NCBI GenBank assembly: GCA_025602915.1
Contig: JAHLJZ010000108.1
Coordinates: 1 to 64,000, forward strand
DNA from: Paraphysoderma sedebokerense
Taxonomy: Eukaryota; Blastocladiomycota; Physodermatomycetes; Physodermatales; Physodermataceae
Length of the DNA stretch: 64,000 bases
Reading direction: 5' to 3'
The translations under genes were made by a program, and so were the position numbers. The notes below the pieces were generated by a model that was not told the DNA's origin, searched no databases, and saw only the letters and a program-made list of their open reading frames with translations. Shown one piece after another: positions 2,095 to 25,345 of this stretch. Position 1 is the stretch's first letter. Every line of letters starts with the position of its first letter.

Positions 2095-5000
2095 ATGGAA
2101 AGCATAGAGGAGTTGATTAAGCAAAGCAGGGGCGTCCTCGGATTACTGGAGAGATGCCAGCCTTTTTTGCAGTCTTCAAAATCTAGGTCTGAATATTGTG
2201 AAGATTCTGCAAAACCTATGCGAAGATCTATAGGTACATTACAAATTCTCTCGAATCATGTGCGTCGTCGTCGGATTAGCTGACGATACACGGTTTTTAA
2301 ACAATTTAAAGATATTCTCGAAGAAATCAAAAAAAAAAAATTTGTAATTAATATTGCATTCTTCTCGACAAAACCCGGTGTTGGTAAATCCTTCATCATT
2401 AATGCGCTTACCACAAACCAAAGTGGGGCTCCCGCTACATCCTCAAGCCAGATGGGCGGAAATGGTGTAACCAGTATTCCTACACGCTACCGCTACGGGA
2501 AAACGAAAAGATACACCCGCTATTACCTTGATAAAGAGCAAATAGAGGAACGCATTTCATTGTATCGGAAATACCACAGTGAATTAGATTTGAGTTATCA
2601 GGAAAAATACAGCTCTGGGCCTTTGCAACAAGATTTAACTTCAGATTTGTTGGATTCAGAGGATTTCTTTCTTCAGGTACAAAATATTCAGAAAAAAACC
2701 AGTCACACAGATCAGTTCTTCACGCTATATGATGAAGTAATCTATCCCTTTCCTTTGATGGAGGAAGCAGATATGAAATATTCATTGCTTGATGTGAGTT
2801 GCATTTATTATGAGGGAAGTACTCGAGTAGGGGATTCATCTAACCGCCTTATAATCCAGCTTCCAGGCTACAGAGATGGAAAGTCCGAGTTCCGATTTTG
2901 TCAGCTCTATGCGTGTTTAAAGTATTGTGATATTCACACAGTTGCCGGAATAGCATATGGTACCGCCGGCCGTGGACGACCTGAACCGGCAGACCTTCAG
3001 TTATTACTTGCTCTACATTGTTTCGAATCACAATTTACCGCAACTCCTCATCCCCCGAACTACATGCATTTATTAAACACAATTAATAACAATGAAGATG
3101 ATTACAATGAAGAGAGATTAAAAGAATTAATCAATGATGCGTTGGTCGACGTATTTGGTTTGGCCACTCAACAGACTGAAAAAGTAAACTCCAATGATAT
3201 TGATGAAATTGCAACTCGAGCCAACAGAAACCTTGCTGCTCTTGAGAATCGCTACAGCCTATACCAGAATATATTGGAGCATAGTATGGCTCATGTCTTT
3301 TATAAAGTCGACAACGCACCCAACGCAGATCATGTCGAAAGATGGAATAACTCAGTCTGTAAACAAACTATTCAGCACTTACGACATGGTGATAACTGAC
3401 ACTTACGCCTAGGTCATATCAGACATAAAGGGATACGTTGCCGAAACCCAACAACAGATCTTGTGCCATCAAGCCCTGGTAATCTTGAGTGAGCTTTCAG
3501 TCCCTTTGAAGTATCGAGTGAAGACGGGAAATACCTCTCTTGAGAAGAAAATGAAGGCCCGTATGAAGCATTTTACGAATTTAGTAATACTGCAAAAAAA
3601 AGGAATTACCGGAAAGCTTAAGGAAATTATGGATTCATCAAAAGATGAATATGATACAGAGACTGGTGATGACACTGCCGCTTTCAACACACTCTATAAT
3701 CTGATAACACATTTAATGGTAGACATTACTGAGAGTTTGGCCAAGGTAACTGCAGATTCTATAATACATTTTTTGCTGATATTTACTTTTACTTGTTTGT
3801 TAGGACATTCGATCCAATGGCTCCAACAAATTTCAGCAGTCTAAAGAGTTTATTGAAAATCATTACCTATCGGAAGAGTGTATAACAAAACTTAAAAATT
3901 ATGTTATGTCCGGAAAACCGATTAGTGATCCTGCAACATCGGTTTTGTATATTCAGCATGCGATAACTCAACTGATGGATTATGTGCAGAGAGAGTATCG
4001 GGCTTGGCTTGATAGCGAAGAATTTGGAAATAATTCACCCCGATTTTTGGAAATTGAATGCAACAATGTCAAAATCCGGGAGAAATGTCAAAAACTTCTC
4101 GATGATTTTATTGACCGCATGCGGGATCTTCATCCATACAATGTCAACACAGAATCAGAGGAAAATGCCGACAGGTTATCAGAAATACTCAAAGAACTCC
4201 GAAATTACTTCCGAGAGAAACTAAAAATTAGGTTAGTTTATTCTATTATGACTGGGATATTTTGTTAGTTATATAACCTACTACAGGAACTCATTAATTC
4301 AAGCGGAACGCAAAGACGAGGAAATTAAAATCACGACTCATCCATTACCCACACCTAAAAGATTCAATGGGAGATATGTAATTCCAGAGTCGGTATTGCT
4401 TATGCAGACTTACTACAGACAGATGTTGAACTAATCTTTCCATTCTTTTGATTATATGGATATGTACCACCCCCCCCCCCCCCCCCCCCCTCCCGACAGA
4501 GGTGATAACTACGCAAAGCTTGAAGACTGTAAAAAATTTGTTCAAATCTTTAAGCATAACACATTCGCCACCCTACAGCGGCGTGAGCGGAAGGTTATTC
4601 CTGTGATACCAGAAATTCCCAACAAATGGTTTAATGAACTTCCGGCAGACGTCAAAGGTAGTACCATAATATTGACTTGCAATAAGAATTATAGGCACAA
4701 GAAGTGCATCGGAATCACATTTGCCGACACTAGTTTAAATGACAATAAGCTGAGACCTTTCCGTGAAGTCCCCAAAAATGGTCAAAACATTTTGAAAAAC
4801 ATTCCTCCTGTCTTCATTCCAACTTATGTACGTATTTCGCTGCTTTCTACTTTAATTTCATGCAATTGACATATTGTATTCATATCAAGCCCCGTCAAGC
4901 CCAGGGAGAAAGCAGCTCCCAGATAGAAGAAATCATCCCTCACATTGAATATCTAGAGAATTTACGTTCCCTTAACACCTCAATTAAAGAGCAAGAAATC

Positions 5001-6413
5001 GAACAGATCACTTTTCTGGTATTTGAAGATGATAAAGAACATAACAGACTCAAAAATTATCACCGTAAATACGGTAATATACCGAATGTCTATTTTCTTG
5101 TCCTTGAGCATGACATTTTCAACTTGAACACCGTGTGTAATATGGGGATTGGCAGAAAACGAACATTTATTCAAGTGGCCGCAGAATATTTCAAATTTCC
5201 TTTGTAAGTGTATATATTCTTTCGTGACATTTTATTTTTAGCCAATTCCGCGCTAACAGTAAACCATTCCCTGGCATGTAAATATAGCTTCGCAGTAATC
5301 GATGATGACATCGGCCGGTATGAAGAATTTTCCCCGAAACACCATCAAAACATTTTCGATGAATACACAACATTCCGTTCTCTTGCTTTCCTGCGAAAAT
5401 CACTTCTCACGGAAATGTTCCCATTGAATAACGAGGAATTAAAAAGATTCAAACTACTGTTGTCATCCGAAGTGTTGAAGTTCGCGTTGTCAAGTGGGCT
5501 GTCAGAGGAAGAAATGGAATGCAAATCCGAACAAATATCAGCAAAGATTGTCAGTTATGTCGAAGGAATGCAAGCTGATGCTGAAACACGTCCTGTGATT
5601 GCGTGGGAGATGTTAAAATATCTCTCAATTGACCCAGAAATAGCTTCGTTAGCGTCAAGCAAAGAGAAAACTCTACTTAGCGCATTGAAGAAAAAATTCA
5701 ATTTGTTTAAAAGTTGTGATCATATCGGGACAGCTGCATTGGTTAACAGAGCAAGTACAGCCTACGCGACTTTGTATAGGAGACTACAAAATTTTCAAAA
5801 AACGACCCATTACATCAGCTCTATGATTTATCAGGTATCTAAATATCTATTGTTCAATTTGCTACATAATCCGTGCTAACCAAGGCTACAGTGTGTGATG
5901 TACCATACAGACGCCATCAAGGGCTTGTATCATGTAGATCAAGATGTTTTCTTCAATGAAGAATGTTTGTCTCATCAAGACCGAGCCCAACTAATGAAAC
6001 AAACAAAAGGTCCTGACGACGCCAATGGTCAAGCATTAATGAAGCTCGGTTATAAGCACGAAGACAAGTATCATCATCGTCAACTCTTGTTGCATGGCGT
6101 GACTGGCTTTCAAGTATATTGGTACAATATCGAAAACAATAAGGAAGAATCATTGGTCAACGGAAATGCCAATAGTTACTCTCTGGTTCATGGCCAGGCA
6201 ATTGAAGCCACTACTAATGGTCATTCCAATGCCAAAAGTCAAACTACTGTTCCTGGTCAATCAACCGCCCGGTCAGAAACCAGTGGTTTAGGCGAGAATG
6301 GTGTGCATTTTCAATTCATACATACACAATTTACTCTTTTTTCTCAATTGTGTATTTTTTCAGCTGATTCTAGGAAACGGAAACGAAGAGAGAGTAATGA
6401 TGAAGCGCAATAG
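2095..6413 (+). CDS. GTPase-glycosyltransferase fusion protein, copy A (dynamin-type G domain + TAGT/GREB1-like GT-A domain)
   Basis: Eleven exons: 2095-2233, 2312-2793, 2860-3354, 3413-3745, 3804-4231, 4287-4388, 4500-4827, 4890-5203, 5288-5834, 5892-6300 and 6364-6413. They sum to 3,627 nt (1,208 aa) in frame. Residues 1-56 form a charged helical leader. FFSTKPGVGKS (about 63-73) is a P-loop with K72, GVTSIPTRYRYG (about 98-109) resembles a dynamin/SLIP-GC G2 region, and DLPG starts at D207, split exactly by intron 2. A helical middle (about 300-630) contains DYVQREYRAW. From about residue 762 the chain reads PPVFIPTYPR, then VFEDD, GIGRKR and FAVIDDDIG (DDD at 878-880), the layout of a GT-A nucleotide-sugar transferase and closest in my memory to TET/JBP-associated glycosyltransferases. 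The tail has KRKRR. G4 is unclear (YKVD is a candidate). Substrate unknown; nuclear location is inferred only. The neighbouring gene is a paralogue. Confidence 0.72.
4470..4490 (+). repeat. Homopolymer of 21 C within an intron
   Basis: An uninterrupted run of 21 C sits in the last 30 bases of intron 6 of copy A, where a pyrimidine tract is expected, and ends ten bases from the CAG acceptor at 4497-4499. Copy B has an ordinary T-rich tract at the same intron. The exact length may be affected by sequencing error. Confidence 0.85.
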
Positions 6414-7262
6414 CCCGGGCCATACTAGCGTAATTGATTATGGACATTACTGCTCGTTCCGTTCACTTTGGTTTATACTGAAAGCGACATAATAATTGCA
6501 ATATTATTAATTCTGTATATTTTTAGCGTTGAAAATAATGAGTTCGATTTTCTGGTGTTACTTAGAGAACATCAATTAGCAGATTATTGTGGGTTTCCGA
6601 GAGAGTGTGTGACATATAATAGCGCCTCATTGTTTGTATCGTATAGATCAGTAAAATGTTCGTTACCAGATATGTGTGCAGGTTAAGCCAGAATTTAGGA
6701 ATTCTATTCACATTTGCTAGATCAACTCAAGATGGGATTGCTGTCCCTGCAGAAGCTTAGACTGTAGAGTCAGTGTTGAGGGTGCCATAACAACAGGGAT
6801 TATTACTAGTTGTAACGTCCACGTCCGTGAATGTTTTGTATAACTCGAATGATTGATGGAATTATTGTAGATATTTATCTCGCATCCTCACCTTGGTGTA
6901 TCTTCTCGTACGAAATATCCTTCAACCTGTCGCATCCGGGCCAAAACCATCACAAATTTCCTTTGCTCATCCATTTTTATTTTTACCATATACAAATTTA
7001 TTTCTCATTTCAGTGAATTGGTGGTCAAGGTTACTATTAAGACCAACTTTCTACCCACGACTACAGTTTCACTGCAGTAAAAATTCCACTCGTTGAAAAC
7101 TCCTTCAACGCGCTTCAAGAATAGCAAACTTAACTAATATTTATTTTTAACGCTTAATCGACACAGCGGGTGGGTATCATTAATAATACAAAAGCAGAAG
7201 CAAATATGCTCAAATGACATATGTTTCTTTATTGTAAAGACTGCAGTAGCGAGTAATTAAAT
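6414..7262. other. Intergenic region between the two fusion genes
   Basis: AT-rich sequence holding the 3' end of copy A and the upstream region of copy B. I found no coding frame with family resemblance, no structural RNA and no convincing terminal repeats that would explain the duplication. Confidence 0.5.
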
Positions 7263-10200
7263 ATGCAAAATATAGCCGACGTGGTTCAACAGAGCAAGGA
7301 GGTGCTCCAGTTATTGGACACATGCAGACCGTATTTACGAAGAACGCAATCAAGACTTGAATATTGTCAGAAATCTGCAGAATCTTTGAGACGTTGCTGC
7401 GGTTTGTTCAAATATCTTGGATATACTTTGATGTCAAACTCTCTTATGATACATTTTCGTTTAAATAATTTGTAGAGATTTTGAATGAAATCCAAGAAAA
7501 CAAATTTGAAATCAACATTGCATTCTTCTCCACGAAACCCGGGGTCGGGAAATCTTACATCATTAATTCACTTACGACAAACATTGATGGAGTGCCCGCC
7601 AAATCTTCCAGCGCGATGGAAGGAGAAGGCGTGACGAATATACCAACACGTTATCGTTATGGTCGCAAGAAACAATACATACGACATTATCTTAATAAAG
7701 AGCAGCTAGATGAGCGCATTTCTCTATATCCGGAATATCATTCGAGAAGCGATTTCGATATAAGCTTTCAGCAACACTTTTCTAATGGACCTGTGAGAAA
7801 AGATATTACCGCGGAACTCTCCAACACGGAAGATTTCTTTACACAAGTGAAGTCGGTCCAAGAGAATACGTCTTTCACGGAACTATTTTATATACTGTAT
7901 GATGAGATAATCTACCCTTTCCGCTTGATAGAGACAGCAGCCCTGAAATATTCTTTGCTTGATGTGAGTTGTAGCTTTAAATTGTGTTGATTGCTTGGAT
8001 AGAATCCACCTAACAACCAGCGTTAAACAGCTTCCGGGATATAGAGATGGCAAGTTTGACTTCCGATTTTGTCAGCTTTATGCATGTTTAAGGTATTGCA
8101 ATATTCATTCTATTGCCGGAATATCAAATGGAATTGCCGGTCGCGGCCGACCTGAGCTATCAGACCTTCAATTATTAGTCGCTTTACGTTGTTTTGAATC
8201 AAATAGTAACAGCAATATGCCTCCGCCAAATTATATGCATTTATTAAATTCTAATATGATTAGTGAAGAGGGTTACAATGAACAGACACTGGACAGTTTG
8301 GTCAACGAAGCCTTCCTTGAGGCATTTGGCTTGGTTGAGCAACAAAATGAAATTAGAAATTCTCAAAGTGAGTATGACGAAATTACGGTTCGAGCGAATC
8401 GAAGCTTGGCTGGTCTTGAAAATCGTTATAGCCTTTATCAACGTATTGTGAACCACAACACTGTTCATGTATTCTATAAAGCCAATCATACCACCTTGGA
8501 TCATATTCAAAAATGGAATGACTTCGTAAGTCTCATCTGTGAATTCTAGAAATACTGTTTTTGCTGACTCGGAATTTTAGGCTATTGGAAAGCTCAAGAA
8601 ACTCCTTGCTGAATCTCAAGAACAGATATTGTGTCATCAAGCTTTGATGATCTTGGCAGAACTTTCAGTTCCTCTGGATAATCGGCTGAAGGCTGCAAAC
8701 ATGTCCGAGAGAAGATTGAGGCAAGTGATGGAGCAATTTAACGAAATAATCACGCTCCAAAGGTCTCGTATCGCTGAAAAGCTAGATGAGATCATCGAGT
8801 TATCGATAGATGAATATGAATCAGAGACTGGGGATGACACTGCCGTTTTGATCAGACTCTACGACTCGCTATCATTTTTCATGGTAGAAATAGTAGAAGA
8901 ACTTGCCAAAGTAACTAGAACTCACTTCTGTGATATATACTGTACTTGTTGTTGACTTTTTTGTTAGTGCATTAACTCAGAAGGTGTGCGGCCCACGGTC
9001 CCACTGCATGCCGAATTTGTGAAGCAGCATTATTTATCAAGACACTGTAAAGCGTATCTTCGAGATTCTATGCTACTCGGAAAATCGGTAGTTGTTGCTG
9101 CACCAACATCAGCTCACTACATTCTACAAACAATAATCCAATTAACAGATTATGTAGAACGGGAATATCGAGTCTGGTATGATGACAGAATTCGTCAGAA
9201 TGGTTCATCAAAATTTTTGCAGATGCGATGTCAAAATGTTCGTACAAAATGTGAGCAGCTACTTAATGATTTTATCAGTCGGATGCAAGACCTTCATCCA
9301 TTTAATATTAACACTGAAGTGGACGATACCGCCCAACAATTGGCCAAACAAGTCGAAGAACTTCAACAATGCTTCTGGAGCAGACTTAGAATCAAGTTGG
9401 TATTTGTGACTTTAGAGGCAATTGCATCTGACACTAATAAAATGAGCAGAAATGCGCTACCTCTCACAGGACCCAAAGACGAAAATATCAATATCAATAC
9501 GCGTCCATTACCAACCCCAAAAAGATATCACGGCGTATTTTCAATTCCTGAGTTAGTGCCCTCCCAATCCCTTGTTCAGTAAACGTTGCTCTGCATATTG
9601 ACATTCTCTCTCTTTATTCGAATATCGCAAAAGTGGGCATCGATATGAATCACTACAAGACTGTGCACGATTTGTTCGTACCTTTAATCACAATAAATTC
9701 ATTACCCTACAACGCCGAGAGCGAGAACCAATTCCCGTCATCAGAGAGGACAACGAAGTATGGTTCCGTACCCTCCCGCAAGACATTCAACGCAACACAA
9801 TAGTTATGATCTGCGGGAAAAAGCATAGGGAAGAGAGGATAGTAGGGATCTCATTTCTTGAAAATACATCGTGGGACAACATCTTGAAACCTTTCCAAGA
9901 AATCCCTAAAGACAGCCAGGAACTATTGAGGAACATTCCCCCTGTATTCATTCCGACTTACGTTGGTATTTCCCTTGCTATGTCATTCTTTTATGCAAGT
10001 GGTCTTACATCAAGACGTTTACTATAGCCGCGAAATGCTACACTTACAGGCAGCTCTCAAACCATTGAAGAAGAAATCCCTCACATTGAATATCTGGAGG
10101 CTTTGCGCTGTCTCGATACTTCAAAAGACGGCATTCATCGAATCGTTTTCGTGGTTTTTGAAGATGATAAAGATCATAAACGGTTGCAAAAATATCATCG

Positions 10201-11526
10201 GAAATACGGCACAATACCGAACGTATATTTCATTGTGATTGAGCATGATTTATTCAATTTAAATACTGTGCGCAATATGGGAATCGGCAGAAAACGAACA
10301 TTCATTCAACTGGCGGCGGAATATTTCAAATTTCCATTGTAAGTATACCTTTTCAACTCCTTGTTAGGGAATCCGAGCTTACACGCAAAAACTCTTTTCT
10401 TACCCTGCTATACAGCTTTGCAGTGATAGATGATGATATCGGCAGGTGCGAGGAATTTTCACCAATACATCATCAAAGTATTCACGACGAATATACATGG
10501 TTTCGTTCACTCAGTTTCCTACGCAAATTATTACTTAACGAGATGTTCTCCATAGATACTGAAGAATTGAGAAAGTTTAAGAGACTATTGTCAGCAGAGG
10601 TGACGAAATTCGCATTGAATGCCAGAGTTGACATTGCTATGATAGAGCCAAAACTTGATAAAATATCGGAAACAATTGTCGAATACGCGGAAAGAATGGA
10701 AGCTGATACAGAAAGGCGCCCAATAGTTGCATGGGAGATGATGTATTATCTATCGAGTGACCCAGATGTAGCTTCTTTAGCCCGGGGGCAACCGACTGGA
10801 AAGACTCTGGCTTCCGTGTTAAAACAGAAATTCAATTTGTTCAAATACTGTGATCATATTGGGACAGCTGCATTGGTTAAGCGATCAGGTACTGCGTACG
10901 CATCAATGTTTAGACGCCTACAAAATTTTCAAAAAACGACGCATTTTATCAGCTCTATGATTTATCAGGTAACTATTAATCAATTGTCCAACGAGTTACA
11001 TTACATACACTAATGCATGCTACAGTTTGTGATGTACTACAGTGATGCCGTCAAGGGGTTGTATCATGTAGATCCCGACGTTTTCTTCAATGAAGACAGT
11101 TTGTCACATCAAGACCGAACCCAACTAATGAAAGATTCAAAGGGTCCAGATGACGCCAACGGTCAGATACTGATGAAGCTTGGTTATAAGCACGAAGACA
11201 AGTATCATCATCGTCAACTATTGCTGCACGGTGTAACTGGATTTCAGGTATACTGGTACAGCATACAAGATAATGAAGAAGAATCTCTGGTGAATGGAAA
11301 TGCGAATAGTTTTTCCGCGATTCGTGGGCAAACTGAAGCTTTACAGTCCGGCGATTCTGGGAGAAGCCCTAATGAAGCAACTGGTAGGCATAAATATTCT
11401 TTTAAGCTACATGTTATGCAATTTCTCACCCTCAATTTTAAAGCTGGATCGCTAAAACGACCACGAAATGACAGTAGTGGGGAATCTCAGTCTCCGAAGC
11501 CAGTCCGCGACAATCGCATTCTTTAA
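7263..11526 (+). CDS. GTPase-glycosyltransferase fusion protein, copy B (paralogue of copy A)
   Basis: Eleven exons at matching positions: 7263-7401, 7476-7963, 8031-8525, 8581-8910, 8968-9395, 9450-9551, 9634-9961, 10028-10338, 10416-10968, 11026-11383 and 11444-11526. They sum to 3,615 nt (1,204 aa). Exons 1, 3, 5, 6 and 7 have the same length as in copy A. The same landmarks are present: FFSTKPGVGKS with K72, GVTNIPTRYRYG, DLPGYRDG at D209 across the exon 2/3 join, FIPTYPR at about 767, VFEDD, NMGIGRKR and FAVIDDDIG with DDD at 878-880. The possible G4 stretch is YKAN here rather than YKVD, so guanine recognition by a standard NKxD/TKxD is doubtful. The C-terminal tail has KRPR followed by SPKP. 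Divergence from copy A is substantial in the helical middle and the tail but low in the glycosyltransferase core, which argues for selection on that core. Function is inferred from domains only. Confidence 0.72.
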
Positions 11527-11926
11527 TTCTGACAGTCTTTATTGTTTCAATCCTTAAAGTTTAACTGAAAGTTCTACAGTGGCAAAATTGAACTTTTAAT
11601 GCGTGAAGCATCAGTTTTTCTCTTTCAATTTTAATAGTTAATTCATTATATCCTTCTCTGATGGTATTGTCAATTATAGTCAGTGAACTTTAATCATGCA
11701 ACATTTGCTATTTTTGTGTCTGACCATAATAAATACAACAGAAAATAATAAAGATATTTCGCTTATCAAAGCCACATACTGTAGTATAATTATTAAATAA
11801 ATTCGCTGTATATCATTCATCACGTGATTACTCTAAATATTGCCAGAGTGGCAATTTCTCGCTCAAATTCAAAAATTCCTCTTTTCATCGTCTTTGCTTT
11901 CATCTTATCATTTATACTATTTCATT
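11527..11926. other. Intergenic region, 3' UTR of copy B and VID27 promoter
   Basis: Contains several AATAAA-like signals (for example near 11729-11760 and 11795) that could end the copy B transcript. A T-rich stretch precedes the VID27 start. No other feature is seen. Confidence 0.5.
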
Positions 11927-14351
11927 ATGTTTGTGCTAAAGTCAATTGGGGGCCTTATATGGGGCTCACAATCCTCTCCAGATCTCATCAAGGTTCCCTC
12001 CGGCCAGCTCAACATCATTCGATTCAATTCAGTCAAGAGCCCGAGAGAATGCATCCTGCCCGAGTGTTCCGCTACTATCAGACGAACTCCCCATGATTTT
12101 CAATACCAACTTATCGTCACTCGTGTGGTCGATGAAGACGATAATGTAGAGGACGAAGAGTTGGACTCAGAAGAATACATCTTCTTGATCGACGAGTGCA
12201 TGAAGTTCTCGAAAGGACAACACGAAAACCTAACGTCGTTCAAATGGGTCGGCCCTTCATCTAGTGCAGACGAAATGTTTGAATTCGTCTGCGACCAATC
12301 TATCACAGCTGCCACGGCAAACACCTTTGAGAGAACTTTGTTGGAGTGTATGTACCAGAGAAAGTATCGTCGAACCCACGAGAATGCTGCAGACGAGGAA
12401 ATCTATGCCTTGGCCGTCCCTTCTCCTAATTTCAAGTCTCCTACGGCTGCTTCTGCAGGTAACAACGTTCCCAGTGGAAAAGGAAGAGTTATTCGATCGA
12501 GTGAACCTCAAACCCCTACTCCGTCCGCTCGACAGACCTCTTCAAAACAGTCCACTCCTTCGGCTACGCCAACATCTTCGAATACAACGAACGGAGCAGA
12601 GACTACAGTTCTCCCTACGGCCCAGAATCTTCCGTCTGGCGATACCTTGTTGACTTGTAATGCAGAATTTTATTTGTTTGATGCCAATTCGAAAACATTT
12701 ATCATTCAAAACCCTACTATCGCTGTCACCATTACCCAAGCTGCTCCCTTTGTGTATTGGCTGTCGTTGGCGTCCAGTGGCAATATGATTCACTGCCAAA
12801 AGATTGAACCTTTGATGAATCCATTTTTCGAAGATCAACATAAAGCGTTCATTTGGAATTACTACGACGATGCTGGTCGAGTGTTTTCACTGTCCTTAAA
12901 ATTCTCGGACAGTCAAAATTACGAAAGTTTTAAACAACGTCAGAATGAATGCTTGTTCGAAGTAATGAACCAGGAAAGCTTCTCCAAATTGAAAGAAGAT
13001 GATCAAAGCTATGTTATGAAGGGTGTTTATAGCGAGGATGTTGAAATGGAGGACGCAGAAAGACTGGATGACGACGAAGAACAATCCGACGAAAACGTGT
13101 CCGAGGAAGAAGATGAAGAAGAGTACTATTCTGATTCCGAAACAGAAGGACCTAAGGGTTCATCTAAAAACTCGCTCCTCGATATTTCACATTTGCATCA
13201 TCGATCATTCGTCGTCAGAGGAGACAAAATTGGTGTTTTTAAACAAACTCCGTCGTCTCTCGAATTCAAAACTACTATTAACACACCCTTTTCGCCATCC
13301 AAAACTCTTCTTCATAATACCGATCAATCGCTTGTCCTCATGAATCCCAACGACCAACATACTCTATCTCATATGGATCTTGAAACCGGAAAGATTGTGT
13401 CAAATTGGCAAGTCCACGATGTTGTTCCCGTAACTGATATCGTCCATGACGCCAAATTCTCGAACGAGACTGGTAATCAAACATTTATCGGGCTTTCTGA
13501 TAATCAAATCTTCCGTATCGATCCTAGACAGAAGGAAAATAAATTGAAAGAATCCGAATGGAAAACCTATGCTTCGAAAGTTGGTTTCAATTGTGGCTCT
13601 ACAAATGAAAAAGGGGAATTGGTAGTTGGTGACGCCAAAGGAGAATTACGATTCTTTAACAAGCTCGGTATCAGGGCAAAGACCAATCTGCCGGGATTAG
13701 GCGGTAAGTTGACACAAACTATATTTCTCTACGTACAAATGATTTATATTAATCATCTCTCATTTGCTGCCGTTAGATCCGATCATTGGTATCGATGTCA
13801 CTTCGTCCGGTCATTATGTTATCGCCACCTGCAAGACATATCTGCTGCTTGTATCAACCCTTCATCCAGACTCGTCAACCTCTGCTTTCACTAAAGCTTT
13901 CCCAAAAGCCGAGAAGCCAGCCCCTATTCGTCTTCAGCTCAAACCGCACCATTTAGCTCTCCTTCAGTGCCCTCTCAGTTTCACCCCAGCCATTTTCAAC
14001 TCGTCACCAAGTACCCAAGAAACTTCTATCGTCACATCCACCGGTCCGTATGTCATCACATGGAACTTAACAAGTATTGAGAAAGGTAGACTATACGACT
14101 ACAGTATCAAAAAGTATCCTGAACGTGTTGTCATGGATCGATTTGGATCAACTCTTGGAGGATCATTAAGCAGTGGTGCAGGCAAAGCGAGTGTCGGTGG
14201 TAAAAAAGTGGATACTCAACCTATTGTTGTCGCTTTGGAAAATGATGTCAAAATGATTAGAAGAGGTGATTTAAAAGCTGTCGAAAAAGTTGTAGGTACT
14301 CCAGTAAGGGGAAGGGTCAAAGGAAATGGTGTTGTGAATTCACCTTGGTAG
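11927..14351 (+). CDS. VID27: VID27 family protein, full-length copy
   Basis: Two exons, 11927-13703 and 13777-14351, give 783 aa, the usual size of VID27. I chose the ATG at 11927 because the product then begins MFVLKSIGGLIWG and runs into IKVPSGQL and ECSATIRRT, the conserved VID27 start. The longer open frame upstream is AT-rich 5' leader. The order is an N-terminal domain (about 1-180), a Ser/Thr/Pro linker (about 185-245), a PH-like middle domain with AEFYLFDANSKTF (about 245-370), an acidic stretch (about 375-415), and a C-terminal WD40-like propeller with SLLDISHLHHRSF, DDQHTLSHMDLETGK and GPYVITWNL. In yeast the family was named for vacuolar import and degradation of fructose-1,6-bisphosphatase; the protein is cytosolic and its biochemistry is poorly known. 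It is followed in tandem by a shorter paralogue. Confidence 0.92.
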
Positions 14352-15300
14352 AATCTTTACAAGGGTTTTTGTCATTTTCAACTTTCACGCCTTATCTGCT
14401 TGGAATGGACAAAATCTTGGTTTGATCGAAAACAAATTATTTGCGGTTTTAATGTCAGTGCCACTATGTACTTTTATCAAATTGTGTAGTCGTGTTTACC
14501 ATTGTTGTCAACTTGATCTGATCGTGTATGGAATAACGTTAATATCAATAAATGTGTCCAATTGAAGTTAATCAAATGATGTTGAGAATGTGTCGTGCTC
14601 AATCCTGCTTAGCTGACTAATGAATAGGAACGACTTACACAATTACAGTGACACCGTCTACAAGAATATGTCGGAGTATCGGTAACTTAATTATTATTGA
14701 TATCCGAATCATACATAAGTCATATATAAATCGGATGATGTATGATGATTGAAATATAAGCTAATCACATGATCATATCTGAATCCAAATACTTTAAAAA
14801 TGGTGAATATCCATGCAAAAGAAATTGTATATCGCGAGAAGAAAAAAATGATGTTGTGATGGCGCTAATTTTATCAAGAAATTTTGTATCTTCATTTTTT
14901 ATCGATAATAATAACAATGGAAAGTTATTTACAGTATCACTCATGGTTCCTTTTACACTCACTAGCAATGCAGAGGATTGAAGATAATCTAGTGTATAAA
15001 GTGAAACCTAGGTTTCAAGGTGATGTGCTCCCTCATAATTTTAAATATATCAATAATAGAAACCGCATCTTGAATTTAATTCTGGAACAGAAGAATATTT
15101 CTATCATTTTCGTAACATTCGTACATTTCTTTGAGGAAAAATCTATCAAGCCGCAAGTTAATTAGTTGTTACATATTGTGGAGGACTTCTTTAGAAGGCT
15201 TCTCGACCGCGAAATTTAGTAACTCCTAACGCATATAGCAACACACCGAGAGAATTGGCACTACAGGAGGAAAAGCATTTTTTTTTACGGAATTTTGTAA
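14352..15300. other. Intergenic region between VID27 copies
   Basis: I searched this stretch for the missing N-terminal domain of the second VID27 copy and saw no trace of it. It carries AT-rich sequence with short overlapping frames without resemblance to known families. A GTAAGT at about 15297 followed by a TTTCAG at about 15354 could be an intron at the 5' end of the next gene. Confidence 0.5.
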
Positions 15301-17186
15301 GTGGTCTTGCTCCATCCGTTCATTATTACAGTGACGTTGACAATGAATGTGTTTCAGTCAAATGCTGGCTCTACCAGAGGCACATCAACGGCGACATCGT
15401 CGCAAAAATCTAGGGCACATACTGATGGTCTTCCAGTGGTCCCTCAACTTCCCAAGGGCGAGTCTTTGCTGAAATACTTGGTGGAATTTTATGTATTTGA
15501 TGACAATTCCATAAAGTTTGATTTACGCAACCGTTCCGTCGTTGCAACTATCACGAAAACAGCTCAGTTTGTGTATTGGCTTGCATTATCGTCCGACGAT
15601 AAAACGATTTATTGCCAAAAAATTGAGCCACATATGAATCCCTGGTTTGATGATAAACAGATGAAATTTTCTTGGAACTATAGCGACGGTGAATGTGTGT
15701 TTTCATTTTATTTGAAATTTTTGGACCGTCGAAGCTACGATAGTTTCAAAAACCAACAGAGTGAGTGCATGTTCGAAGTGATGAACCGGGAAGTCTTCTC
15801 TAAAATTTCAGCCGACGATCAAAGCTATGTTATGAGGGGAGTTTACAGCGAAGATGTAGAGATGGAGGACGCAATTTATGGAGAAGAAAACGAAGAATTT
15901 ACAGAGGAATATGCGTCTGAAGAAGATGGAGAGGAACATGAGGAATGTTACTCCGGCTCTGAAGACGATGAAGACACAAGTCCGTCTGGCGTAAATACTT
16001 CGAAAAATTCGCTCCTTGATATTTCTCATCTACACGATCGATCATTTATTGTACGAGGGGACAAAATCGGTGTCTTTAAGCAAACCCCCTCCACCATTAA
16101 ATTCCAAACTACAATCAACGCGCCATTTTCTCCATCCAAAACACTTCTTCATAAAACTGATCGATCACTTGTTTTGATGAATGCTGATGATCAACACACA
16201 CTATCTTACTTAGATATTGAAACCGGAAAGGTTGTGTCGAATTGGCAAGTTCATGATGAAGTCCCTGTGACTGATATCATACATGATGCCAAATTCTCGA
16301 ATGAGAGCACCGAGGAAACATTCATCGGGTTATGCGACAATCAAATTTTTCGTATCGATCCAAGACAAGAGAATAATAAGTTGAAAGAAACAGAATGGAA
16401 GACGTATGCCTCTAAAGTGAATTTTAGTTGTGGCTCTACAACTGAAAAAGGCGAATTGGTTATTGGTAGCACCAAGGGAGAATTGCGATTCTTTAATAAG
16501 ATTGGCATGAACGCAAAAACACTTTTGCCAGGGTTAGGAGGTAGGTCAATTTTCATTTTATTGTTGAAGATTAGCATATATAACATATGAGCACCTGTTG
16601 ATGTTCATTAGATCCCATCATTGGTATCGATTCCACAGCATCGGGCCATTACGTTGTCGCAACCTGCAAAACGTATCTTCTACTTGTGTCAACTCTTCAT
16701 CCAGATGAATCCACCTCAGCTTTCAAAAAAGCCTTTCCAAAAGCCGAGAAGCCGGCCCCTATTCGCCTTCAACTCAAATCTCACCATGTCGCTCTCCTTC
16801 AATGCCCTCTCAGTTTCACGCCTGCCATTTTTAACTCTTCGCGTGACTCCAAAGAGACTTCAATCGTTACATCAACTGGTCCCTATGTCATCACTTGGAA
16901 CTTAACAAGTATTGAGAAAGGTAGACTGCACGACTATAGTATCAAAAAGTATCCTGAGCGCGTTGTCATGGATCGATTCGGTTCAACACTCGGGGGTTCT
17001 TTGAGCAGTGGTGCAGGTAAGGCGAGTGTTAGTAGCAAAAAATTAGATGCACAACCTATCATTGTGGCTTTGGAGAACGATGTAACGATGGTAAGAACTG
17101 GTGATTTGAAAGCTGTGGAAAAAGTCATTGGTACGCCAGCCAAAGGAAAGGTCAAAGAAAATGGTGTCGTGAATTCACCATTTTAG
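15301..17186 (+). CDS. VID27 paralogue lacking the N-terminal domain
   Basis: Exons 15301-16540 and 16612-17186 (about 604 aa) share the single intron, at the same codon (GLGG/DPIIGID), with the full copy next door. The product starts in the Ser/Thr linker and keeps the PH-like middle domain (VEFYVFDDNS), the acidic stretch and the whole propeller ending VVNSPF. The first 200 or so residues of VID27, including the PSGQL start, are absent. The true start is uncertain: ATG at 15301 or 15340, or an upstream exon, since TTTCAG at about 15354 is a good acceptor and GTAAGT at about 15297 a good donor. The intact frame and many synonymous differences from the first copy suggest an expressed, constrained gene and not a fresh fragment. 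Confidence 0.8.
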
Positions 17187-18703: not shown

Positions 18704-19752
18704 ATGTTGTTCTCGCTCGGTCGACTTCTGTTAGCTATTATTATCATCCTTCCTGTTCACCTAAAATATACCCTGTCAACTCCTCTTGGTTACGCCGGCA
18801 AAAATAGTGCCTTGAATAGCAAAGAGACTAAGACTCAGTCAGAATTGGTGTCTTTGTCGGACGATAACGCTATTATAGTGAGAGCAAAATATTTCGGTAA
18901 TTATGCTACAAATTGCTACTGGTATGTTTCATTTATATCTCGCATTGAGAAAGGTTATTTGACTGACATTTTAACCCGCTCAAATGATATTGTAGCCCAA
19001 AGCAAGTATTGCAATCATTTAATTGTGCGACTTGTCGACCATCGTTATCATCGAACGAGATGGTGCAAGTCTTCGAAAATACAACAATGAATACCTTGTC
19101 TTACGTTCGTTACGATTCGAATCAAAATTCAATAGTAGTAGCTTACCGTGGCACCGTAAACCAAATGAACTGGGAACAAAACTTGAGATTCAATCCCATG
19201 ACGTATAAATTCTTAAGTGGCGACAACAGTCCGGATATTCCGGATCAAGCAAGAGTACATCAAGGTTTCTACGAGTTATTTGATGCAACCAAGGCAGAAC
19301 TTACTACAGTTGTAACAAATCTATGGAGAGAGAAAAGTGCTGCCAGCAATAATTCGACGTTGCCGTTAAGGTTGATAGTTGTTGGGCATAGTATGGGTGG
19401 AGCATTGGCTGGATTTTCAGCTTTACATCTCCAACGAACCCTGAATCTGAGTCGATCCCAAATAGAAGTCTATACCTACAATCAGCCACGCAACGGAAAT
19501 GATGATTTTGTAAATTTTTATGACGCTAGGATACCGACTTACCGAATTGTGAACGGAGATGACCCTGTGGTGCATGTACCGCCCAGATTTGTGTTCTTCA
19601 CCCACTACGGGTCGGAGATATTCATTGACCTGGATGGGCAAATATATCAATGTCCCGAAAAAGAAGACGGTCGATGTGGACAAAGATTTAGTAACTTTAA
19701 TCCTCTTCGGCATAGTCTTGTACTTGGCATGGAACTAGCAAGATGTAGGTAG
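18704..19752 (+). CDS. Secreted class 3 lipase 1
   Basis: Exons 18704-18921 and 18996-19752 encode 324 aa. A signal peptide (MLFSLGRLLLAIIIILPVH) is followed by a propeptide-like stretch. The first intron interrupts the codon for the Cys of NCYCP, the start of the alpha/beta-hydrolase core of the Rhizomucor-type (fungal lipase 3, PF01764) fold. A CxxC (NCATC) follows. Catalytic Ser is S205 in VVGHSMGGA; the acid is in NGDDPVVHVP; the C-terminal His is probably in RHSLVLG. HYGSEIF and a Cys pair (QCPEKEDGRC) match the paralogues. It lacks the second intron that lipases 2-4 have, as does lipase 5, so 1 and 5 form one structural class. It is expected to hydrolyse extracellular acylglycerols. I saw no TATA-like box close to the start. 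Confidence 0.9.
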
Positions 19753-20235
19753 TGAGAACATGCAGGTCCTCAATCTCTCGAACGCCATAGATGTTGTTAA
19801 TTTAATGTAAGCACTGTAATGTAATATAATATAATAATCATTGTTCGCATCATTTTCAGTCTGTACAGTTTTTATGCAAAATATCCATTGTAGGAGAAAT
19901 AAATATCGCACATGATTGGATTTCATAGTCATTTAGGCGCCGTTCTTTCAACCACAATTGAGAATCGATTCGGGCCGTTTCAAACTCAATGGCCACTCAG
20001 CCGAATTTGGCGCAATGCCCGAGGTTTGAGCCAATACGACCTATTCTTAGCACTAGCTAAAAAATATCAGACATAATCTACCGTTAATGAATCTTATTCT
20101 ATGATTATGCGCAATTTGTCGCTAGTTTGTTTTCGCTTTTCTCGAAGGGCCAATGTCCTCTGTTTCCTGAAATGCATATATAAGTAGCTGTTAAGTACCT
20201 GAATGCATTACGAAATCCATCAAAAAAGGTTCAAT
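19753..20235. other. Intergenic region between lipases 1 and 2
   Basis: Contains the 3' UTR of lipase 1 (AATAAATA near 19897) and the promoter of lipase 2. No further gene is visible. Confidence 0.5.
20177..20184 (+). promoter_or_regulatory. TATA box of lipase 2
   Basis: TATATAAG lies 59 bp before the chosen ATG at 20236. Similar boxes precede lipases 3, 4 and 5, so a shared promoter type is likely. Confidence 0.55.
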
Positions 20236-21315
20236 ATGTGGAGTTTTTATGTTGTGATTCTTTTCATGTGTTTACTACATCTTACCTACGGACACCCGTT
20301 AGATACAGGAATAACCCCAGCGGCAGTAAGAGACCCAGTACTGCTATCGAATGATTCACAAGTCCTCCAGGACGCACGATTTTACTCGAAATATGCTGCA
20401 AGCTCTTACTGGTACGCTGAATTTGATATAATTACGGCCTTTGTGTAGCTGAACTCTAAGCATCTCAAATTTTTATAGTCCCTCCCAGTCAATTGTGCCA
20501 TCTTATAACTGTTCCATTTGCCAACCTGCTATTCAGGCGCCTGGCGATGTTGTGAAGGTAATACAGAACGACACAACGGCAACTTTCGGTTTCTTAAGAT
20601 TGGACTCTTCTCAAAATGCTATCATCGTTTCTTTTCGTGGCTCTAAATCCGGTACAAATTGGCTTAATAATATTCGACTTTCTCAAATATCATACAACCA
20701 GCAGTACACAGCGACAACTCCTTCCGCCATGCCCGCAGAGTCCAAAGTTCATAATGGAATGTGGGATACTTTTAGCTCCATTAAAGACGATTTAGGGAAA
20801 TCGGTACAAGAATTTCTCTCGCGGCCCCAGGCAGTTAATGGATCGCCTACTCAAAAGCCAAGGGAGATTGTGTTAGTAGGCCACAGTCTTGGTGGTTCAT
20901 TGGCAACTTTTGCGGCAATGCATTTGAGAATGGCTCTAAATATACCAAAGGAACAAATTCGAGTGATAACATATAATCAACCGAGAGTTGGGAATTCAGC
21001 GTTTGCCGATTTTTACGATTCAATGGTACCAAATACTCTTCGAGTCGTTAATGGCAATGATGTTTTCACTAAGTTGGTCAGCATTTCCTTTCCGCTGAAG
21101 AGTTGTCCTTGTCTGTTAACTGACCAGCATATTTGTTACAGCCGGCAATGATATCAGATTACATACATTTTGGGTCTGAAATATACACTGATCTTGACGA
21201 CAAAACGTACCAATGCTTTGAAAGAGAGGACAAAAGATGTAGCCTGAAGTTCTACGCATTTGACATTGATAAGCATTTTTCTGCTATTAATCAGACATTT
21301 AAGTGCTCGGACTAA
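20236..21315 (+). CDS. Secreted class 3 lipase 2
   Basis: Exons 20236-20411, 20479-21076 and 21142-21315 encode 315 aa. I chose the ATG at 20236 over 20203 because it puts the hydrophobic signal peptide (WSFYVVILFMCLLHLTYG) at the N-terminus as in the paralogues. The mature part runs SSYCPSQSIVPSYNCSIC, GFLRLDSSQN, VSFRGSK, VGHSLGGS with catalytic S195, YNQPRVGN and VVNGNDVFTK with the catalytic Asp. Exon 3 gives HFGSEIYTDLD, the Cys pair (QCFEREDKRC) and a final DIDKHFS with the probable catalytic His. Part of exon 2 is nearly identical at the DNA level to lipase 4, which suggests recent gene conversion or duplication. Confidence 0.9.
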
Positions 21316-22018
21316 AAAATTTAAAGCTTTAACCAAATATAGTGTTGTATAAATGGTATATAAGCTCTGACAGAGCTTTAACCAAACGTTGTATCATAAA
21401 TCTCTTTATATTCTGTTAGGTTTCAACTGATCTCAAGATTTTCCACTTATGATGAAGCAATATAAACAAACCATGTATTAAAAATATTGTGCAGCCGCCA
21501 ACGGCAATCCTGTAAATTTGCTGGGAAAACACTTGGAATGAATCTCAGTTCTGTCTGTCATACGGATCTACGGGCATATTTTACGATTGACTCAAGTTTT
21601 CACTACGACCAACCGAAAGGCGATAAATCTACAATAAAGCACAATCTCTGGCAATAAACGTTAAAATGTTCTTATTCCTTCATCGGGCACATGTGAAGAC
21701 CGAATGGGGCTGTATTTCCGCCATACAATCAATTAGATACAACAAGCTTCGGGCTATTTTAACCTATTTCGCGCAGTCGCGCGTGTAAAAAACTAATACC
21801 GCCGACCACCAATTTTGTTCCAATCACTTGAGTATATGAAGTATTGAGCAAAAAGACAAAACTATACTCCGTAAATCAATTGCATTCTATTTTTTAGTGC
21901 AATTTATCGGTTATCAATTCCATCGCTTATTTACATCGTCCAGATTAAACCGATCTCGTAAGTATGTACATATAAGTAACCGAGACGAATTGGCAGATTT
22001 CAATCCATAAAGTACGAA
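21316..22018. other. Intergenic region between lipases 2 and 3
   Basis: AT-rich. It carries a locally repeated phrase near 21324-21385 (AGCTTTAACCAAA twice, about 45 bp apart) in the 3' region of lipase 2. No coding signal is seen. Confidence 0.5.
21971..21976 (+). promoter_or_regulatory. TATA-like box of lipase 3
   Basis: TATAAG within ACATATAAGTAACC lies 48 bp before the ATG at 22019. The flank resembles that of the lipase 2 box (ATATATAAGTAGC). Confidence 0.5.
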
Positions 22019-23118
22019 ATGCCGAAGATTAGCTTGTTGTGGATTGCGATTATTTGTCTCACCTTTCCGTCATATACTGTGTACGGTAGACCGTTCAATC
22101 CTTTTGGGGCTCCAGCAGCAGAAAAAGAGCCGGCACTGTTATCCGAAGACTCTCCAGTCTTAAAGGACATCAAGTTCTACTTACCATATGCGGCTAGCTC
22201 TTACTGGTACAATTGTTGCTGTGTCTAGAATCTTGAACACCTGTATAATCCTAACTCTTATAACTTTTAATGTAGCCCCGTTCAATCAATTGTTCCATCT
22301 TACACTTGCTCAAGCTGCCGCCCTGCTATTCAGGGCGCCCAGGATATGGTTAAAGCAATCCAGAATGAAAGAACAGATACTTTCGCATTCATACGTTTGG
22401 ACTCGTCACGGAATACTATTACCGTCTCTTTTCGTGGTTCCAAAACCGGTGTCAATTGGTTTAACAATGTTCGATTCAACCCAATTTCGTATACCCGGCA
22501 ATACTCTACCATCAATACAACTACGGTTCCACCAAATGCCGCTGTCCATAATGGAATGTGGGATACTTTCAATTCTATAAAAGATGAATTGGGGCAATCA
22601 GTACAGGAATATCTTTCACGTCCACGTGATAGCAATGGATCCTCCCAGAACTCAACACAGATAGTGTTAGTAGGCCATAGTCTTGGTGGTGCGTTGGCTA
22701 CTTTGGGTGGTCTGCATTTACGAATGGCGTTGAATTTACCAAAGGAACAAGTTCGGGTGATAACGTATAATCAGCCGAGAGTGGGGAACTCGGGGTTCGC
22801 CGACTTTTACGATTCAATGGTACCAAACACTCTTCGAGTAGTCAATAGTAATGATGTCGTACCTAAAGTGGTAAGCATTCCTTCTCACTGATGATTCTAT
22901 GATTATACACCCAGTATTAAACTGATTAAAATCTTCTTTAGCCAACTAGGGTTGCACAGTATGTACATATCGGATCTGAAGTATACACAGATATTGATGG
23001 AAAAGTATACCAATGTTTTCAAAGAGAGGATCCAAAGTGCAGCGTAAAATTTTTGAATTTTGATGTCGCTAAACATACGATTCTCTTTGATCAAACGTTT
23101 GGGAATTGCTCAGGTTAA
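22019..23118 (+). CDS. Secreted class 3 lipase 3
   Basis: Exons 22019-22206, 22276-22870 and 22942-23118 encode 319 aa. The signal peptide is MPKISLLWIAIICLTFPSY. The core has SSYCPVQSIVPSYTCSSC, FIRLDSSRN, VSFRGSKTG, VGHSLGGA with S198, YNQPRVGNSGF and VVNSNDVVPK. Exon 3 gives HIGSEVYTDID, the Cys pair (QCFQREDPKC) and DVAKHTILFDQTFGNC with the probable catalytic His. Both introns lie at the same codons as in lipases 2 and 4. All parts of the triad are intact, so an active secreted acylglycerol hydrolase is expected. Confidence 0.9.
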
Positions 23119-23936
23119 GTGAGTGCTCTTTGTAGAATGCATTACTGGGATTTCCTGCCCGAAATATCTGTAGACAATGTAAATACAAAGCAAAAGTAAA
23201 GAATACATTTAATTAAGCGATCAGTATTTTTTGCTTGTTTATCATATTTTTGTACACAACTGGAATTATTGACAGGTTCAAACACAGATGATCAAGTTTG
23301 AATTCAACCGCAAAAACCACTTAGTATAATTACTACATAGTTTGCGTACATATTCTTGGCTGAAAGATGAGAATCCGGGATTGTCATTGGTTTATCATGC
23401 AAAACTCCTTATTTTATGCACCGATTCATCCGAGAAAAATGTCAAAATGGCATACCTGAATATGTAATGGCAATAATTATACTATCTTTTAATGCCACCA
23501 TTCAAAATTAATGAGAAAGCTCAAGAAGGGCAGGCTCAATGCGACGGAATCAAAGATAAGCCACCTGTAATTTGGTTCTTTATAAGTAGACGCATCGGAA
23601 GCAATGAATGCAGCAGGATTTTGGGTCGGAGAGAAGATGTTCACAGAAGTCTTCCAAACTTGACAACTTCCACATAAACCAGAGTTAAAATATTCAAATA
23701 TATGTAATCTGTTCCTCAGAAATAATATTGTAGCAGACAATAGAGCGATAGCTTTAAAGGAAAGAGGAATGTGTTTATTTGAAGCTTTTAACACGAAGTA
23801 TGCGTTGCGTATATGTGGCATCGCACTGGCATCTACATTAAATTTCAGCTATTAACACTGTTCTGGCAGTACATAAATATAAATGCTACCAAATGGCCCT
23901 GTATGTCAAAAATTATCCTGAAACCATAACATACTG
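23119..23936. other. Intergenic region between lipases 3 and 4
   Basis: The longest gap in the lipase array. Open frames on both strands at 23489-23821 overlap and show no resemblance to lipase or other families. An ATAAATATAAAT stretch at about 23873-23884 may be the TATA element of lipase 4. Confidence 0.5.
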
Positions 23937-25036
23937 ATGAATTACTTGTGGATAGTCCTGCCTTTCCATTTCTTGTACCTGGCATTCACTGTCTACGGAC
24001 ACCCTTTGGACATTTTGCCACGAGCGGCGCCACTGGAGCCACTACAGTTATCAGAGAATTCGCAGGTCTTGCAAGATGTGAAGTTTTATTTACCATATGC
24101 TGCTAGCTCTTACTGGTATGGAATACAGTTGATTTGCTTATTTTCATGAATGTAAGCTGATTTTCGTCGCCATAACTTTAGCCCTTTGCCATCTCTTGTC
24201 CCGTCGTTTAGCTGCTCCATTTGCAGACCAGCCGCTCAAGTGCCCGACGATGTAGTTACAGCGATAGAAAGCGACAAGACCGATACATTTGGTTTCGTAA
24301 GATTAGATAATTCCCGCAATACTGTCGTCGTCTCTTTTCGTGGTTCCAAAACCGAAATCAATTGGGCAAAGCAGTTTCAATTTATTCAGAAATCATATAA
24401 CGATCAGTATCCGCCCGAAATATCATCCGCTATTCCTTCAGATTCAAAAATTCATAGCGGAATGTGGGATACTTTCGAATCAATAAAAGACGAGTTGGCA
24501 AAATCGGTACAACAATCCCTCTTACGCACTCAGGCAGTCAATGGATCGCCTACTCCAACTCCGAGAGAAATTGTACTGGTAGGGCACAGTCTTGGTGGTT
24601 CGTTGGCAATTTTTGCGGCGATGCATTTGAGAATGGCTCTAAATATACCGAAGGAACAAATTCGGGTGATAACATATAATCAACCGAGAGTTGGGAATTC
24701 AGCATTTGCCGATTTTTACGATTCAATGGTACCGAACACTATAAGAGTTGTTAATGAAAACGATGGCGTACCTACCCTTGTAAGTCTGCATATTAAATTG
24801 TCAACATTCTATTCAAGTTACTCTCCTACATTCAGCTGATCAAACTTTTCTTGCAGCCGCCTATCTTCGTCAATTATCTACACGTTGGGTCAGAGATATC
24901 TATTAATCTTGACGGAACCGTGAACCAGTTCTTTGGAAAAGAAAACACAAAAGAGAAAATACCAAATCTTCTAGAATCTGATTTTAAACGACACAATGTT
25001 ATTTTTGATCAAACATTTGGAAATTGCCAGGGCTGA
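23937..25036 (+). CDS. Secreted class 3 lipase 4
   Basis: Exons 23937-24115, 24182-24779 and 24857-25036 encode 318 aa. A signal peptide (NYLWIVLPFHFLYLAFTVYG) is followed by SSYCPLPSLVPSFSCSIC, FVRLDNSRN, VSFRGSK, VGHSLGGS with S196, YNQPRVGNSAF and VVNENDGVPT. Exon 3 keeps HVGSEISINLD and the KRHNVIFDQTFGNC end with the probable catalytic His. It has lost the Cys pair found at the equivalent place in the other four lipases (QFFGKENTKE instead of QCF...C). The Ser and its flanks, together with about 150 bp downstream, closely match lipase 2. Confidence 0.9.
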
Positions 25037-25164
25037 ATTAGTATCGCCCTATGTAAATTAACATGTAAAATAGCACATATAACTTATATATTAGATATCC
25101 AACATACTTTATAAGTCATGGGTATGGAATCGTTGGAGGCAATAAATCATGCAATCTTTATTCA

Positions 25165-25345
25165 AACAACTGGCTCGTACTGGAAACTGTTCGTGCTCAA
25201 TAAGCAAACCTCCGAATAAAATATCCTAGTGATGCGGTACAGTCATGGGGACAACCGACGTCAATGAACAGACATTTGCAGACTTTGGAAACTCAACGGT
25301 CCCAAATTATTTAGAATCTTTAATGCAGACGAAAATATTCCTCTT
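25165..25345 (+). pseudogene. Decayed class 3 lipase relic
   Basis: The DNA around 25170-25215 resembles the exon 1 end and exon 2 start of the lipases: CTGGCTCGTACTGGA matches the SSYW/C codons and the next bases read NCSCSISKPP, like NCSICQPA. About 50 bp on, CAACCGA and then CATTTGCAGA...CTCAACGGTCCCAAA align with the region that encodes QPRVGNSAFADFYDSMVPN in lipases 2-4. The catalytic Ser region between them is mostly missing and the frame is closed by stops. It is the remnant of a sixth array member, aligned by eye only. Confidence 0.6.

Follow-up and report, generated by a model that had tools for sequence, protein, structure and literature searches.

A 64,000-nucleotide stretch of the Paraphysoderma sedebokerense genome (NCBI GenBank assembly GCA_025602915.1, contig JAHLJZ010000108.1, positions 1 to 64,000 of the forward strand; hereafter the window) carries two tandem genes, gene 1 and gene 2, in each of which a P-loop GTPase-like domain is followed by a joining region and a glycosyltransferase-like domain. 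P. sedebokerense is a blastocladialean fungus and a parasite of microalgae, and its assembly comprises 27.3 Mb. We propose that the GTPase-like domain and a probably helical region behind it control a C-terminal glycosyltransferase of the TAGT (TET/JBP-associated glycosyltransferase) superfamily within an intracellular, probably nuclear protein, and we assign this reading, which is drawn from the sequence, a probability of about 0.5. Nucleotide binding would drive the assembly of the protein or open the transferase, the DDD motif would serve the metal and the sugar nucleotide, the GYKxEDKY motif would act in the acceptor half, and a C-terminal basic cluster would carry the protein to the nucleus. 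There, a protein, in line with what is reported for GREB1, would be a more likely acceptor than a DNA base.

Both genes lie on the plus strand and share 59% identity across 1,194 aligned codons, with the same intron phases at nine of ten positions. The earlier note on this DNA had announced two tandem genes of about 1,200 amino acids each and quoted a set of motifs, all of which were found in place in our spliced models. Its further claim that a GTPase-like domain and a TAGT-like transferase follow each other in one protein was supported by the splice models, by a third copy of the gene on another contig (C51; a decayed fourth copy lies on contig C170) and by the deposited gene 2 protein P0001 (BKA69DRAFT_1101415). 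The latter is a single model of 1,204 amino acids that runs through both halves and is identical to our own gene 2 model, except that residue 628 is absent and residues 662-671 are replaced by one residue. In the deposited annotation of gene 1, two proteins are given. P0004 (BKA69DRAFT_1101403, 515 amino acids) corresponds to residues 1-483 of gene 1, after which it continues with the sequence of intron 4 (3746-3803), and P0002 (BKA69DRAFT_76469, 691 amino acids) corresponds to residues 518-1220 minus 12 residues at the intron-6 junction. Gene 1 was thus deposited as two proteins because intron 4 was left in. Two separate genes per copy, the outcome that would have spoken against a fusion, are what the deposited models show for gene 1 but not for gene 2, which was deposited as one.

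Judged by these gene models, the fusion is real as gene structure, and one polypeptide per gene is well supported by the same domain order at two loci, by matching introns and by the single deposited model of gene 2. That each copy consists of two neighbouring genes, one for the GTPase and one for the transferase, which were wrongly joined, is very improbable. The split of gene 1 into P0004 and P0002 would fit such an arrangement, as would the C51 copy, whose joining region appears to be out of frame at two points. However, the splicing of gene 1 intron 4 keeps the reading frame open exactly where gene 2 is spliced and deposited whole, the order of GTPase-like part and transferase is kept at the second locus (C51), and only introns of 51-84 bases, the size range of all introns in both genes, lie between the parts. 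Moreover, the joining regions of genes 1 and 2 are 47% identical, with a ratio of nonsynonymous to synonymous substitution rates (dN/dS) of about 0.33. A run of 21 C at 4470-4490, situated just before the acceptor of gene 1 exon 7, may give rise to differences in assembly or splicing.

When the two genes were compared by the Nei-Gojobori method, the overall dN/dS was about 0.22. Values of 0.21 and 0.33 were obtained for the GTPase-like residues 1-375 and the joining residues 376-650, followed by 0.24 for residues 651-770, while the transferase reached 0.09 (771-905), 0.18 (906-1010) and 0.12 (1011-1165), and the tail 0.53 (38 codons); all of these ratios are rough because dS is near 1-2. Selection is purifying, and it has preserved the transferase core best of all. 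That the catalytic motifs, too, are under such selection suggests that some activity has been kept.

The assignment of the C-terminal half to TAGT is based on profile matches in two libraries and on the order of its motifs. Pfam TAGT (PF20691, curated cut-off 27.5 bits) was the top family for both gene 1 (E-value 1.5e-5, 25.4 bits) and gene 2 (E-value 5.1e-6, 27.0 bits), and pieces of gene 2 scored 28.3 bits and, with a 299-amino-acid piece, 30.0 bits. Among the PHROGs, phrog_842 (beta-glucosyl-HMC-alpha-glucosyltransferase) was the best match for P0001 (E-value 1e-4) and P0002 (E-value 0.0022). At E-values up to 1, either profile matched all three transferase-bearing copies (best E-values 6e-7 for TAGT and 6.8e-5 for phrog_842), and no other glycosyltransferase family was matched by these proteins in Pfam or PHROGs. 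Ten control sequences, nine shuffles and one reversal of a 300-amino-acid piece of gene 2, gave no TAGT match. A protein of phage T6, which is 97.9% identical to the T2 protein annotated as beta-glucosyl-HMC-alpha-glucosyltransferase, itself scored as TAGT with 37.2 bits. This is in line with PMC13216743, which places the T2/T6 enzyme in PF20691, with a predicted GT-A fold beside GT2.

Three motifs, IP[ST]xxR, GI[AG]xxR and DD[DT], were found in the same order and spacing in 3/3 fungal transferases and 8/8 phage TAGTs tested (8 of 13 fetched, with five of ten IMG/VR loci left out), compared to none of 20,000 shuffles of gene 2; the pattern was written after both sets had been seen. The sequence DDDIG is conserved in all three transferase copies and GYK[HF]EDKY in all four, if the tail of the C170 copy is included. 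The block after DDD is common to three copies and ends with GYK[HF]EDKY...LLLHG.GFQVYW, and by eye, it parallels the ED...L...G block of phage TAGTs.

Judging from its motifs, the N-terminal part can fairly be called a P-loop GTPase-like domain, although one outside the recognised families. Only weak matches to MMR_HSR1 (best E-value 0.0089) and RsgA_GTPase (best E-value 0.012) were obtained among the four copies. A P-loop segment of the form S-[TKR]-x-x-G-[VA]-GKS and the sequence TxIPTRY are present in all four copies, and DLPG, corresponding to the G3 motif DxxG, was found in both window genes and on C51, i.e., in every copy readable at this position (3/3). The first glycine of the Walker A motif is absent from the P-loop segment, the complete G1/Walker A pattern GxxxxGK[ST] had no match in gene 1 or gene 2, and no convincing G4 motif was recognised by eye. 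The stretch TKPGVGKS, previously taken for a P-loop, therefore departs from the pattern in its first glycine. The dynamin type that had been ascribed to this domain was not supported either. Dynamin_N matched one of the four copies, at an E-value of 0.11 only, and a search of the genome returned 19 matches on 12 contigs, none of which was C51, C170 or C108, the contig of the window. Dynamin-like genes are thus detectable in this genome, and the present family is not among them; with G1 incomplete as well, dynamin membership was rejected.

The C51 copy (117279-121019, minus strand) has the same domain order, with both parts on the same strand, and is 37% identical in the GTPase-like part and 42% in the transferase part (about 35-42%). 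It has introns at all five positions compared by eye, and the copy may be a pseudogene. Directly upstream of it, on the same minus strand, lies a 573-amino-acid open reading frame (ORF) with ankyrin repeats (L011:7686-9407). The C170 copy is decayed, leaving only one GTPase-like piece and, apart from it, one C-terminal piece, the tail of which carries ARKRKR, resembling the basic cluster of gene 1. The only match of the assembly to PF10117 (McrBC, McrC-like) is located about 1.6 kb before this copy, at C170:7056-8405 (L012:557-1906, E-value 1.5e-17), in an uninterrupted ORF of 449 amino acids. A search for a McrB partner with AAA_5 gave 24 matches, none of them on C170 (23 of 78 candidates scored). 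A divergent ORF of 426 amino acids on C170 (L026:5459-6739, minus strand) shows Walker-like stretches by eye, and no AAA match was obtained for it. Beside the decayed GTPase-like piece lies a tandem repeat (L012:6404-6888), in which a 57-bp unit (6.1 copies, 99% matches) runs into one of 96 bp (2.1 copies). The idea that the copies stem from a mobile element was considered and dropped, as no transposase was recognised beside them when L011, L012 and L026 were read as ORFs and nine ORFs were scanned; one ORF of L011 (727-1506) gave a sub-threshold match to the resolvase-type HTH_7 (E-value 0.076).

The family was not found outside P. sedebokerense in the searches made, each of which was of limited sensitivity. 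The protein searches (7,181, 6,807 and 7,995 candidates scored) yielded two hits each, all from the species itself and linking P0001 with P0002 or P0004. These searches missed the C51 copy, indicating that sensitivity or annotation was limiting. Contig scans with the fungal alignment confirmed 0 of 112 stretches in IMG/VR and 0 of 83 in GTDB, and queries with phage TAGTs confirmed 0 of 4 in IMG/VR (one phage TAGT) and 0 of 24 in GTDB. A search of plasmids gave no match, PADLOC reported nothing, and NCBIfam contributed one sub-threshold match.

A number of results weigh against the proposed reading. Besides the deposition of gene 1 as two proteins, the missing Walker A glycine and the lack of a convincing G4, the whole-protein TAGT scores (25.4 and 27.0 bits) stayed below the cut-off, which only the shorter gene 2 pieces exceeded, and the match spans only positions 22-94 of the 205 positions of the profile. 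When a profile of eight phage TAGTs was run against 906 targets, 903 of which were shuffled or reversed sequences, gene 1 ranked 18th, gene 2 ranked 85th and the C51 copy was unlisted. In the reverse test, a fungal profile against 816 targets placed the best phage TAGT 32nd and left two of the eight unlisted. With small alignments, hhalign returned a probability of 0.6%, yet the GIG-R and DDD motifs were paired, and with cropped alignments the probability was 0.0%, unrelated ends were aligned and the motifs remained unpaired. Both AlphaFold models, one of P0002 with P0001 as alignment (mean pLDDT, i.e., predicted local distance difference test, of 33.2) and one of residues 1-627 of gene 2 with four exons of the window (mean pLDDT 37.9), were too poor for a fold search. 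Of the stalk and GED assembly surfaces typical of dynamins, the second model showed no more than low-confidence helices. Since mutual detection fails, it is broad curated profiles and the order of the motifs that carry the TAGT kinship. In addition, a tblastn search of phages with the transferase core gave two records of one phage at an E-value of 3, and sequence searches of the PDB returned nothing credible (best E-values 0.11, 0.22 and 0.71). An exon-wise search of the fungal genome with PF20691 had no matches, even in the window with its known genes; being blind to these, it cannot exclude further TAGT genes.

These results leave room for the view that the likeness to TAGT is one of resemblance only, and that the domain belongs to another GT-A enzyme, e.g., of the broad GT2 kind, which shares IPTxxR and DDD by common fold and not through close kinship. 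The borderline score, the partial coverage of the profile and the failure of fungal proteins and phage TAGTs to detect each other would fit this view, and the phage TAGTs themselves cluster beside GT2 in PMC13216743. However, no other glycosyltransferase family appeared among the Pfam and PHROGs matches at E-values up to 1 and the two libraries agree, and we consider this explanation unlikely.

With regard to function, the protein is probably nuclear, because basic C-terminal clusters recur in the sequences (RKRKR in gene 1, KRPR in gene 2 and ARKRKR in the C170 copy). For the acceptor, the genome was searched exon-wise with Tet_JBP (PF12851), and no match was obtained at E-values up to 1 in this search, which had no eukaryotic positive control. 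As no Tet_JBP gene was detected, a route resembling that of base J or 5-hydroxymethylcytosine is doubtful, TET-coupled DNA modification was dropped as the leading reading, and a protein acceptor became somewhat more likely. GREB1 is reported to O-GlcNAcylate ER-alpha (PMC10908778). The genome contains 13 matches to DNA_methylase (PF00145, cytosine methyltransferase-like) on 5 contigs and one MT-A70 locus, and a search for PF05869 (Dam) gave nothing. DNA hypermodification remains a rather improbable alternative to a protein acceptor. Here, as in the phage relatives, the sugar would go to a DNA base that has been oxidised or modified in some other way, be it in the nucleus or in an invader, with the GTPase-like part as a gate. 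The phage T2/T6 enzyme, a member of both TAGT and phrog_842, has DNA as its substrate according to PMC13216743, and the PF00145 matches, the single PF10117 match near a decayed family copy and the basic clusters that suggest the nucleus would all suit this alternative. However, the missing Tet_JBP match, with the limits of that search, and the ability of a TAGT to act on protein, as reported for GREB1 in PMC10908778, speak against it. Still more doubtful is the bolder version, in which a nuclear nucleotide-gated enzyme would sugar DNA, be it the fungus's own or that of an invader, as a mark or a shield, in a genome with a McrBC-type restriction gene for modified DNA beside one decayed copy. 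This would be a eukaryotic counterpart of phage hypermodification with no TET/JBP step.

A different setting would be that of an intracellular immune or conflict protein, in which nucleotide-dependent assembly on an invader would free the glycosyltransferase as an effector, by analogy with the AP-GTPase-GT4 and STAND-GT4 systems. Effectors joining a GTPase with a transferase of another GT family are known from conflict systems (PMC8195603), and this family was found in our searches in this species only, is tandemly duplicated and is partly decayed. Furthermore, an ankyrin-repeat ORF adjoins the C51 copy and an McrBC-type gene the C170 copy, and gene 1 gave a sub-threshold match to the death-fold family PYRIN at residues 930-980 (E-value 0.024, 15.2 bits against a cut-off of 22.9), located inside the transferase insert at approx. 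5469-5621 as counted from exon 9. However, gene 2 gave no PYRIN match at E-values up to 1, the proteins showed no recognition repeats, selection on the GTPase-like region of the two genes is purifying, and the neighbourhoods differ among the three loci. The immune explanation is a tentative and not a likely one. By analogy, defence may be the most attractive biological setting for the family, and the GT4 conflict proteins together with the PYRIN match make such a role worth testing, no more. Our preferred reading remains that of a GTPase-like domain controlling a probably nuclear TAGT-type enzyme, for which a protein acceptor is somewhat more likely than DNA, and the features of which are summarized in Table 1.

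Table 1. Coordinates of the two tandem genes and their parts within the window.
Feature	Position	Strand	Description	Basis
Gene 1	2095..6413	+	11 exons, 1,220 amino acids	Own splice model and deposited proteins compared
Gene 1 GTPase-like region, exons 1-3	2095..3354	+		Motifs; weak MMR_HSR1/RsgA matches among copies
Gene 1 GTPase-like motifs	2377-2391; 2470-2499; 2791-2868	+	GVGKS; TSIPTRYRYG; DLPG (spanning intron 2)	
Gene 1 joining region, exons 4-5	3413..4231	+	Includes intron 4 (3746-3803)	Taken as helical by analogy with gene 2
Gene 1 putative transferase, residues 771-1165	4795..6182	+		TAGT and phrog_842 matches
Gene 1 transferase motifs	4801-4895; 5022-5033; 5145-5162	+	IPPVFIPTYPR; FEDD; GIGRKR	
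Gene 1 transferase motifs, later part	5289-5315; 6048-6071	+	FAVIDDDIG; GYKHEDKY	
Gene 1 C-terminal basic cluster	6372..6386	+	RKRKR, possible nuclear localisation signal	
Gene 2	7263..11526	+	11 exons, 1,214 amino acids	Own splice model and deposited protein compared
Gene 2 GTPase-like region, exons 1-3	7263..8525	+		Splice model, weak profile matches
Gene 2 GTPase-like motifs	7541-7555; 7634-7663; 7961-8039	+	GVGKS; TNIPTRYRYG; DLPG (spanning intron 2)	
Gene 2 joining region, exons 4-5	8581..9399	+		Mostly helical in very-low-confidence model
Gene 2 putative transferase, residues 771-1165	9932..11316	+		TAGT and phrog_842 matches
Gene 2 transferase motifs	9935-10033; 10157-10168; 10280-10297	+	IPPVFIPTYPR; FEDD; GIGRKR	
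Gene 2 transferase motifs, later part	10417-10443; 11182-11205	+	FAVIDDDIG; GYKHEDKY	
Gene 2 C-terminal basic cluster	11455..11466	+	KRPR, possible nuclear localisation signal	

By eye, the neighbours of the two genes in the window comprise the end of a chitin-synthase-like gene, a Vid27-like pair and lipase-like tandem genes, and tandem duplication is common here. The stretch 11837-17186 holds a Vid27-like gene and, behind it, another Vid27-like copy that seems to be shorter, and at 18988-26816 there are five tandem lipase-like ORFs with the sequence GHSxGG, all named by eye. Further downstream (43667-53533), six ORFs are rich in proline, serine and threonine and apparently encode single-pass membrane proteins, at least four of which share a common C-terminal stretch by eye. 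This run of ORFs coincides with a strong negative GC skew at 44-52 kb.

For better comparison, the two proteins were set against the known systems that resemble one of their parts. With the dynamin superfamily and SLIP-GC (NUGGC), whose GTPase may resemble the present G domain, they share DLPG, a TxIPTR-like segment and possibly a helical region after the G domain; they differ in remaining undetected by Dynamin_N, in a Walker A without its first glycine and in the lack of a clear G4. The kinetoplastid base J glucosyltransferase, likewise a TAGT-type enzyme of a eukaryotic nucleus, works after the JBP hydroxylase, whereas no Tet_JBP gene was found in the exon-wise search of the P. sedebokerense genome. 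With the phage T2/T6 enzyme, to which both Pfam and PHROGs point, the fungal transferases share the order and spacing of IP[ST]xxR, GI[AG]xxR and DD[DT]; the second half of both also shows, as judged by eye, an acidic motif of the ED type with L...G behind it. In contrast, the T6 protein stands alone with 279 amino acids, while the fungal proteins add the GTPase-like and joining parts and have the halves of their transferase separated by some 100 additional residues, and the direct profile comparison with phage TAGTs was not significant. Animal GREB1 is likewise a large protein of eukaryotes and has its TAGT-type domain at the C-terminal end, and it is described in PMC6163654 with a circularly permuted superfamily II (SFII) helicase module. 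The fungal proteins, which have the GTPase-like part in place of this module, gave no helicase family among their Pfam matches at E-values up to 1. Bacterial AP-GTPase-GT4 conflict proteins, as described in PMC8195603, also unite a GTPase switch and a glycosyltransferase effector in one system, but theirs is a Ras-like GTPase with a COR domain and leucine-rich repeats, and their transferase is a GT4 enzyme (two-Rossmann) and not a TAGT.

Among the literature matches listed (titles and abstract starts), no described protein combines a GTPase-like domain with a TAGT, and the sequences point to a domain architecture that is new within an enzyme superfamily already known. TAGT was reportedly defined in a 2013 paper, in which this architecture may already have been noted. 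Enzymes of this kind are known from phages, where they add sugars to DNA, from kinetoplastids, in base J synthesis, and from animals, where GREB1 is a nuclear-receptor cofactor. If our reading is true, a fungal TAGT branch joined to a GTPase-like switch would mean that enzymes of this type can be controlled in a novel manner, and the family would lend itself well to studying the substrates of eukaryotic TAGTs.

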